A stretch of DNA of 36,232 nucleotides. Source: Thermoproteota archaeon. GTDB lineage: Archaea > Thermoproteota > Thermoprotei_A > Sulfolobales > Ignisphaeraceae. The translations under genes and the position numbers were made by a program. The DNA is taken from NCBI GenBank assembly GCA_030550585.1, contig JAUQPB010000003.1:1-36232 (forward strand). Direction: 5' to 3'. This document shows, one piece after another, positions 33,118-36,232 of this stretch. The notes below the pieces were generated by a model, which was not told the DNA's origin, ran no database searches, and worked only from the letters and a program-made list of their open reading frames with translations. The first letter of the stretch is position 1. Every line of letters starts with the position of its first letter.

Positions 33118-33418
33118 CCAAACCACAGTCCACCAAAGACCAAACCCACTACAAAATCATTCTAAGCTCTTTAAAACACCTTTACACACACCAATCAACT
33201 CTTTCTTGGTGTTTCAGTCTATTCTTAGTCGTCGGAACAAAAACATTCAATTCTTTTCATCCAACCATCGGAACAACTACATAAAGTCAACTCCTTTTCA
33301 TCGGAACACACATCGCATATACAATCGATGAGTCTATGGACTTTCTGATTAGAGTCAAAAAGCTTTTTAAGCGGGGCGGGAAAAGGTTTTTATAGAAAGT
33401 ATATAGGTGTGAATGCAA
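33118..33418 (+). promoter_or_regulatory. CRISPR leader with short internal repeats
   Basis: This gene-free stretch lies between the glycosyltransferase and the first repeat. It has three copies of TCGGAACA (33232, 33268, 33301; 36 and 33 nt apart), interspersed with similar T/C-rich blocks (TCAATTCTTTTCATC and TCAACTCCTTTTCATC). A perfect palindrome AAAAAGCTTTTT is at 33357-33368, overlapping a TATA-like CTTTTTAAG (33363-33371) that would start transcription about 25 nt before the array. TTTTTATAG (33386-33394) and GTATATAGG are alternatives. The repeat's 3' end (AGAAAG) matches the tag end of crenarchaeal repeats, supporting plus-strand transcription from this side. Confidence 0.65.
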
Positions 33419-36232
33419 GAAACTCCCATAAGGGAGTAGAAAGGAGGCTCTCTATCTTCACCCCATCAAAAGTCCATTTGGGTTAAATCCGGAAACTCCC
33501 ATAAGGGAGTAGAAAGTGCGTATCTGTATCTTCTTCCAATAGTGTTGAGAAGATCTTCAAGTGTATACGTGAAACTCCCATAAGGGAGTAGAAAGCTATA
33601 CAGAGCGAAACACAGAGCAACAAAACAGTGTATAAGGGAAACTCCCATAAGGGAGTAGAAAGTAAACCTATGCTTATACGGAAGCAAAAGAAAAGAACCA
33701 TCCTCAAGAAACTCCCATAAGGGAGTAGAAAGCTAGAATGACCTTCGATATATTCCCCTTGACCTTGCCATATCTCTTGAAACTCCCATAAGGGAGTAGA
33801 AAGTTCTCTGTTAGTTTAACAATCATTGCTTTCTCCTCCGGATTGGGTGAAACTCCCATAAGGGAGTAGAAAGATTTTTAACGTATCCATAAAAATTTTG
33901 CAATGCTATTAACATTGCTCGAAACTCCCATAAGGGAGTAGAAAGCCTCACTACTACTTATCAGAAGAAGATTTTAGCTCAGGGTTCCTTAAGAAACTCC
34001 CATAAGGGAGTAGAAAGGCATTTAAGTGTGGTGTTGATATCCGTGGTGTAAACATAGATCCATGAAACTCCCATAAGGGAGTAGAAAGTATGAGTATATA
34101 TTTGTGGTTGGCTTTATCCATCCCAAGAAACTCCCATAAGGGAGTAGAAAGCTATTTCCAGATGCTAGGAAACCGGTGTAATTTATAAGCCTTGTCCATC
34201 CAGAAACTCCCATAAGGGAGTAGAAAGTCAGGTATTTATGGTATCTATCGTCTATTCCATGCATATGTAATATCAATGAAACTCCCATAAGGGAGTAGAA
34301 AGTCGATATCCATGACCAATGCATCCCCTATACGGTTGTCAATGAAACTCCCATAAGGGAGTAGAAAGTAGCTGAGTCTCGACAGTTTCTGGTCTAACCC
34401 TATGCCTAGAAACTCCCATAAGGGAGTAGAAAGGGAAATCCTTTACAACAGCCTTAATCGTTTCTATATTTGATTTGAAACTCCCATAAGGGAGTAGAAA
34501 GTTTTGATTGAGAATAACTTTGTTGTCTCTTTTTCTGATTAACTTGAATCTAGAAACTCCCATAAGGGAGTAGAAAGCGGTAAGCTTTTCGCAAGAATTT
34601 CTCAAGTGATTGAGAGAATGAAACTCCCATAAGGGAGTAGAAAGAACGGCAAAGCGGCTATAGAGCTACGAGTATCTACTGTTAATTTGAAACTCCCATA
34701 AGGGAGTAGAAAGATACCAAATGGTGTACATCCATATATCAACGATAGATACATTTGAAACTCCCATAAGGGAGTAGAAAGACGAAGGTTGTTCTCACTT
34801 GCTGGAAATTGATTGGTGCATTTGATGAAACTCCCATAAGGGAGTAGAAAGAAGTTTATTTTGGTGGGGGTGGTGGGAGTTATATGCTATCCATTTCTAG
34901 AAACTCCCATAAGGGAGTAGAAAGGCTGAACTTGGTTTGCCAACGATTATTAAGAAAATAGAAAGTGAGAAACTCCCATAAGGGAGTAGAAAGATATTTA
35001 AAACTTTCGTTTTTGTTTGGTTTTTGTTTTACTTTTTTGTGAAACTCCCATAAGGGAGTAGAAAGCTCTACCTCTACCACAACCTTAAACCTGAACTGTT
35101 TTCTCGTGGAAACTCCCATAAGGGAGTAGAAAGGCTAGCACATCAACAACAAAGTCTAGCATACTTACAAATATCAGAAACTCCCATAAGGGAGTAGAAA
35201 GTGTATGTTGATGAGCTATAACCAGGTGTAGCCCATACTTCCTAGCTTCACTCAAGAAACTCCCATAAGGGAGTAGAAAGAGGAACAACATTATTGTGAA
35301 GAGGTGGGGCACTAGATCTAGATTGAAACTCCCATAAGGGAGTAGAAAGCTCTCAGTAAATACCAATGGATAATGTATATCTGGATTTGTCTCAAGAAAC
35401 TCCCATAAGGGAGTAGAAAGCAGTACACAGTACAGTATCCGAACCAGCAGCCACAGCAAACAATGGACACGGAAACTCCCATAAGGGAGTAGAAAGGTGA
35501 ACACAACTATGGTCGTTGTTGATGTGTTGTAGTCTATCATTGCGAAACTCCCATAAGGGAGTAGAAAGGCGCAACATTCTCCAGAATGCTACTCCGCCTA
35601 CCCTAGCCTTCACCAAGAAACTCCCATAAGGGAGTAGAAAGTTATTATATCCAAACCTTATCGTTATTCTCCCCGCATTATCCCACAGCCACGAAACTCC
35701 CATAAGGGAGTAGAAAGTCAGACCGAGATCGTGGAAGAACTTGTGAACACCTGAATCGATTAAGAACTGAAACTCCCATAAGGGAGTAGAAAGACGAATA
35801 TGGGCATTCAGAGGTGTTCTTCGTTGATGCGGACAAGTACGGAAACTCCCATAAGGGAGTAGAAAGGACTATCCAGACGACTACAGCAGGTGGTGGGGCA
35901 GGAGACACGCCGAAACTCCCATAAGGGAGTAGAAAGTTCTTCACAGTATTTTGGAATCTTTTCAATTAAATTTGACATAGATTGAAACTCCCATAAGGGA
36001 GTAGAAAGGTCCAAGAATCCCTCCTCAGCCAATCTTCTGATTGCCCTTTCCATCGTATGAAACTCCCATAAGGGAGTAGAAAGAACTTATTTTAGCTTTT
36101 TCACAATGTCTTTTTCTATTGATACTATCAGACGAAACTCCCATAAGGGAGTAGAAAGTTTGATAATAAAGAAAATGAGGATGACGCAGCACAGAACAAG
36201 GAGCTATGAAACTCCCATAAGGGAGTAGAAAG
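33419..36232 (+). CRISPR. CRISPR array: 40 repeats of 25 nt and 39 spacers, continuing past the window
   Basis: The repeat begins GAA, contains the stem-loop ACTCCC-ATAA-GGGAGT and ends AGAAAG; I read all 40 copies as identical. Repeats start at 33419, 33492, 33571 and so on to 36208, with the last ending on the final base of the window. Spacers are 38-54 nt long (most 43-51), all different. The 6-bp stem suits processing by a Cas6-type enzyme; by analogy with crenarchaeal repeats this suggests a type I or III system, but no cas gene is in the window to confirm it. Most spacers read openly in at least one frame, as expected for pieces of virus or plasmid genes. The unbroken repeat identity fits the leader-proximal, recently active side. 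Confidence 0.98.

Follow-up and report, generated by a model that had tools for sequence, protein, structure and literature searches.

A CRISPR spacer in an Ignisphaeraceae archaeon that probably derives from the TraG/VirD4-type ATPase gene of a conjugative element

Spacer 26 of the CRISPR array that closes the window (the whole stretch of 36,232 nucleotides that was analysed) very probably records the past entry of a conjugative element into an ancestor of the host archaeon, a piece of the element's TraG/VirD4-type ATPase gene having been captured. This piece would lie immediately downstream of the Walker B motif of the gene, which appears to encode a DNA-translocating ATPase of the HerA/FtsK superfamily (DUF87). 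The invading element would belong to a family that occurs in Desulfurococcaceae and related genomes, and to which pNOB8, pARN3, pMGB1 and THER333_p, all archaeal conjugative plasmids, are probably related in sequence.

Both flanks of spacer 26, which is number 26 counted from the leader, are formed by the identical 25-nt repeat GAAACTCCCATAAGGGAGTAGAAAG, and the array has 42 identical repeats and unique, regularly spaced spacers of 38-54 nt, as is characteristic of CRISPR spacers (Table 1). Because the sequence upstream of the first repeat is nearly identical in this array and in the array at C7:275-277 kb, the leader is placed on the left and spacer 1 is leader-proximal; a crRNA made from spacer 26 in this direction would run antisense to the matched gene's coding strand. 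The reverse complement of spacer 26 is open over 18 codons, reading LSEARKYGLHLVIAHQHT without a stop. The initial annotation had described a 54-nt spacer with a fully open reverse complement, which was confirmed to the nucleotide between identical repeats; the reading frame of the peptide that it printed was right, but only 17 residues were given, the final T of LSEARKYGLHLVIAHQHT having been dropped. Since most spacers contain several open frames, the open frame of spacer 26 alone is weak evidence. The length of the array is uncertain because a 100-N assembly gap lies inside it directly after the window end (G000:C3:36233-36332) and spacer 39 reappears right behind this gap (36358-36406). 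A fifth array (G000:C7:57840-61011), with 45 spacers and the variant repeat GAAACTCCCAAAAGGGAGTAGAAAG, lacks a leader resembling that of the window array.

Table 1. Positions of spacer 26 and of associated CRISPR features in the window
Feature	Position	Strand	Remarks
Spacer 26 (54 nt)	35202..35255	coding sense (-)	LSEARKYGLHLVIAHQHT; predicted piece of a TraG/VirD4-type DUF87 ATPase
Repeat, leader side of spacer 26	35177..35201	(+)	
Repeat, distal side of spacer 26	35256..35280	(+)	
Spacer 1, leader-proximal	33444..33491	(+)	frame EALYLHPIKSPFGLNP; same predicted ATPase family, strand opposite to spacer 26
CRISPR array	33419..36232	(+)	40 repeats and 39 spacers within window; extends beyond window end
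Leader	33190..33418	(+)	conserved with array at C7:275-277 kb; approximate boundaries; gives array direction

A 21-aa query consisting of the spacer-26 peptide plus three flanking residues, compared by tblastn with 72,556 plasmids (7.3 Gb), matched 19 records, 16 of them archaeal, and in 18 of the 19 the matched gene carries a DUF87, T4SS DNA-binding, HerA-like or ATP-binding annotation. The best match (80%, E=1e-4) was to Thermococcus nautili THER333_p, which we take to be pT33-3 from its strain name and size; the others include S. islandicus pARN3, S. solfataricus pMGB1, S. tengchongensis pTC, an Acidianus hospitalis plasmid and pNOB8. With the ATPases of THER333_p and of those Sulfolobales plasmids that matched best, the spacer-26 peptide shares 72-83% identity, and the product of the matched plasmid gene is 1,006-1,370 aa long in the five records inspected. 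The degenerate codon pattern of the peptide occurred at 38 places in 84,980 genomes. Letter-for-letter copies of the peptide occur in L048 (Desulfurococcaceae archaeon KUA_Bin13), G073 and G074, all from the host's order, and this codon-pattern search gave close versions in Sulfolobales, Acidilobaceae, Pyrodictiaceae, Fervidicoccus, Archaeoglobus and Marsarchaeota. When PDB sequences and Pfam were searched, the spacer-26 peptide was too short a query to give a relevant match.

At the nucleotide level, spacer 26 differs from the G074 gene at 11 of 54 bases, all of them third codon positions, and from L048 and G073 at 13 bases, with no amino-acid change in any of these comparisons. Since only about 23% of randomly placed changes are expected to be silent, this pattern argues strongly that spacer 26 descends from a gene with the LSEARKYGLHLVIAHQHT reading frame. 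The same gene was matched as DNA in pNOB8 (85% over 41 nt) and in G073 (83% over 48 nt). The proposal of the initial annotation that the peptide carries an ATPase motif, and that an ATPase gene is the protospacer class, is therefore borne out: translated searches returned the predicted class in the predicted frame, the nucleotide matches agreed with them in gene and frame, and only synonymous changes separate spacer 26 from the closest genes. These searches found ATPase matches in archaeal plasmids and genomes but no exact protospacer of spacer 26 in plasmids, phages, IMG/VR, 84,980 genomes or 214 genomes of the order, the best match being 43/54. In them, the spacers of the window array were compared with plasmids and phages, those of two other arrays with phages and those of one with plasmids; the degenerate codon pattern was run over IMG/VR and the 84,980 genomes, and the spacers were compared as DNA with the 214 genomes of the order. 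Divergence confined to third positions can reveal the target gene of a spacer where an exact protospacer is absent.

The target protein of L048 (P0001, 814 aa, cut off at the locus end) matches the Pfam families DUF87 (5e-16), TrwB_AAD_bind (1e-12), TraG-D_C (7e-9) and T4SS-DNA_transf (8e-8), all above curated cut-offs, and is therefore TraG/VirD4-like by sequence, which supports a TraG/VirD4-type DUF87 ATPase as the target of spacer 26. Structure prediction for the target (mean pLDDT 85.6) gave a fold whose best matches include HerA, VirB4 and TrwB alike and which does not separate these subtypes. Of the broader DUF87/TraG/VirB4/HerA-like class that had been named at the outset, the TraG/VirD4 type is thus retained on the Pfam evidence, whereas the VirB4-type paralogues adjoining the target gene match only 4-5 of the 18 peptide residues and the HerA-like proteins of the host match 6-9. 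On archaeal conjugative plasmids, VirB4- and VirD4-like ATPases are the T4SS proteins that have been recognised, and mutation of the VirB4/VirD4-like genes of pT33-3 abolished conjugation, according to a review (PMC12857230).

Several target loci have VirB4-type and T2SSE-type ATPases and multi-TM proteins close by, and the 16 loci examined contain, in varying sets, an AAA_10 (VirB4-type) ATPase, a T2SSE/VirB11-type ATPase together with its multi-TM partner, and membrane proteins such as the one matched by spacer C7a_sp45; no integrase was detected among ten tested neighbours of target loci. Clusters of TraG/VirD4-, VirB4- and T2SSE-type ATPases with multi-TM proteins are present in related archaeal genomes (L146-L158), in some of which the ATPase frame is broken by a stop codon, and these clusters possibly represent a family of integrated conjugative elements.

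The source of spacer 26 is most likely a conjugative element because the gene is absent from the host and has no close member in viral collections. HerA/FtsK-superfamily ATPases are carried by some viruses, and distant relatives of the target are present in IMG/VR, both of which speak for a virus with a packaging ATPase of this type as the source. Nevertheless, the phage collection contained no match to the peptide or to the target protein, the single exact occurrence of the motif in IMG/VR lies in a gene identical over that stretch to a match in a bacterial genome, and the best segments of the other IMG/VR relatives are mostly 22-31% identical, while every close match lies on a plasmid or in a chromosomal locus with transfer genes. 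A viral origin was rejected on these grounds and is given a low probability; of the conjugative or ATPase-packaged past invader proposed by the initial annotation, the conjugative part is supported and the packaging part is not. A chance resemblance of an open frame to an ATPase motif, which might be entertained since spacers commonly hold short open frames, is effectively refuted by an E value of 1e-4 in 7.3 Gb, by the confinement of divergence to third positions and by a further spacer that encodes part of a protein of this family. In a local search against conjugation loci, moreover, spacer 26 reached E=6e-15, spacer 1 6e-11 and C7a_sp45 6e-9, and the best of all reversed spacer peptides run as a control reached 1.8e-4, some ten orders of magnitude weaker than spacer 26.

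That spacer 26 was taken from the host itself, or from a relative's cellular ATPase of the HerA-like or Ced/Ted DNA-import type, has in its favour the similar motif AREGRKFGLGLVIVSQRP of HerA-like proteins and the existence in Crenarchaea of the Ced/Ted systems, which are domesticated conjugation systems (PMC9905601). Like the loci described here, Ced/Ted are conjugation-derived and combine a VirB4/HerA-type ATPase with a polytopic membrane partner; however, their ATPase is VirB4-type (CedB), whereas Pfam prefers TrwB/TraG for the target of spacer 26, and they are domesticated, whereas the target is patchily distributed (33 of 214 genomes of the order at E<=1e-30). The host genome (1.76 Mb, 99.9% complete) contains no target homologue besides the spacer itself, its distant HerA-like proteins being 26-32% identical, and none was found at E<=1e-20 in the 18 genomes of the host family, the host and 17 others. 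With neither another copy nor a close gene in its own genome, spacer 26 matches foreign rather than host DNA, and in view of this and of the poor match to the host HerA-like proteins, a self or cellular origin was rejected as very improbable.

Two further spacers point to the same transfer machinery. When the window spacers were compared as DNA with the genomes of the order, spacer 1 matched the same gene in G105 (80% over 41 nt), and its frame corresponds to ESLYLHPLKSPFGLNP, EALYLHSIRSPFGLNP and similar stretches. C7a_sp45 (G000:C7:57840-57882) encodes GLYLALGLAFGAF, which L148 matches at 13/13 residues and L147 at 12/13; the protein concerned is a membrane protein with about 10 predicted TM segments, encoded near the ATPase. 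Because two spacers target one gene, and one of these is the newest in the array, repeated encounters are indicated; spacers 26, 1 and C7a_sp45 indicate that the host lineage met conjugative DNA more than once. In spacer 25, an ATPase-like motif was seen by eye in the +1 frame (LAHQQQSLAYLQIS), but this candidate was set aside, being absent from the notable matches of the local search.

PAM flanks could be read from homologues only. The flank of spacer-1 homologues is CCN in 7/9 (a proline codon), and that of C7a_sp45 homologues is CCC in 2/2; for spacer 26, for which the initial annotation had suggested looking for a conserved flanking PAM, the homologues carry CCN in 8/33 and TCN in 6/33, counts that do not single out a PAM. 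Type I-A systems of Sulfolobales are known to use CCN and TCN as PAMs (PMC3839810, PMC4390879). Neither Cas1 nor Cas6 (TIGR01877) was detected in the assembly, a genome with more than 130 repeats, nor was Csa2 (TIGR02583), a weak negative since the control for it rang in one genome only; type I-A, which is recognised by Cas1 together with Csa2, is thus not assigned to the assembly. Within the genus, Cas1 is present in 6 of 11 genomes. Near the C4 array (G000:C4 ~771.4-782.4 kb; L162, L036) lies an operon encoding Cas10, Csm2-like, Csx10-like, several Csx7/Csm3-like proteins and Csx1, which places it in type III-D, qualified as type III-D-like because several of its NCBIfam scores fall below curated cut-offs.

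These features are consistent with a scheme in which the array would be transcribed from the left-hand leader to yield a crRNA with a 5' handle ending in GAAAG, followed by UGUAUGUUGAUG. The spacer-26 crRNA, which would be antisense to the ATPase mRNA, may guide interference against incoming or integrated copies of the element, at least through the encoded type III-D-like complex. Type III interference would fit spacer 26 on account of this antisense orientation but would not fit spacer 1, whose crRNA would be sense. Spacer 1 was presumably acquired later, from the opposite strand, and fits PAM-guided (CCN) adaptation of the type I-A style, the genes for which were not found in the assembly. 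We tentatively propose, as a possibility that we regard as rather doubtful, that the three convergent spacers mark an unsequenced conjugative-element family in the host lineage, distinct from the pNOB8 family and resembling the Desulfurococcaceae- or Fervidicoccus-type loci with VirB4-, VirD4- and T2SSE/VirB11-type ATPases, which would be repelled largely by the type III-D-like system after loss of the adaptation genes.

In Sulfolobales, spacers directed at conjugative plasmids have been amply documented, e.g. those acquired from pMGB1 in S. solfataricus (PMC3839810, PMC4390879), so that the finding on spacer 26 belongs to a known kind and is ordinary CRISPR biology, well identified; new are the lineage of the host and the fact that three spacers converge on a single gene cluster. 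Long spacers, large arrays, matches to conjugative-plasmid genes and mixed strands are common to both, as apparently are CCN/TCN PAMs, whereas the host family lies outside the studied Sulfolobales strains, its spacers are 38-57 nt long, no exact protospacer was found, and the target gene is closest to Desulfurococcaceae-type loci rather than to the pNOB8 family. The TraG/VirD4-like ATPases of pNOB8, pARN3, pMGB1 and THER333_p share the domains and the motif of P0001, with 35-44% identity to it, but only chromosomal copies in related genomes have the spacer-26 peptide unchanged, and the neighbourhoods of these copies often add a T2SSE/VirB11-type ATPase. An anonymous array thereby testifies that conjugative DNA was met repeatedly in a family in which the ATPase gene itself was not found, and the delimited transfer-gene loci of related genomes are where the invader may be sought.

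Other spacers of the host resemble other genes. Spacer 39 (36159-36207; frame +1, LIIKKMRMTQHRTRSY) resembles a KaiC/RadA-like ATPase gene that genus relatives carry, at its C-terminus and with 91% over 34 nt in G003 (L118 644-1603); the gene looks chromosomal, and an Rfam search of the loci matched by this spacer gave nothing. C7b spacer 3 (G000:C7:276674-276718) matches, at 80% over 41 nt, an IS607-type resolvase gene located upstream of a TnpB-like gene in L154.
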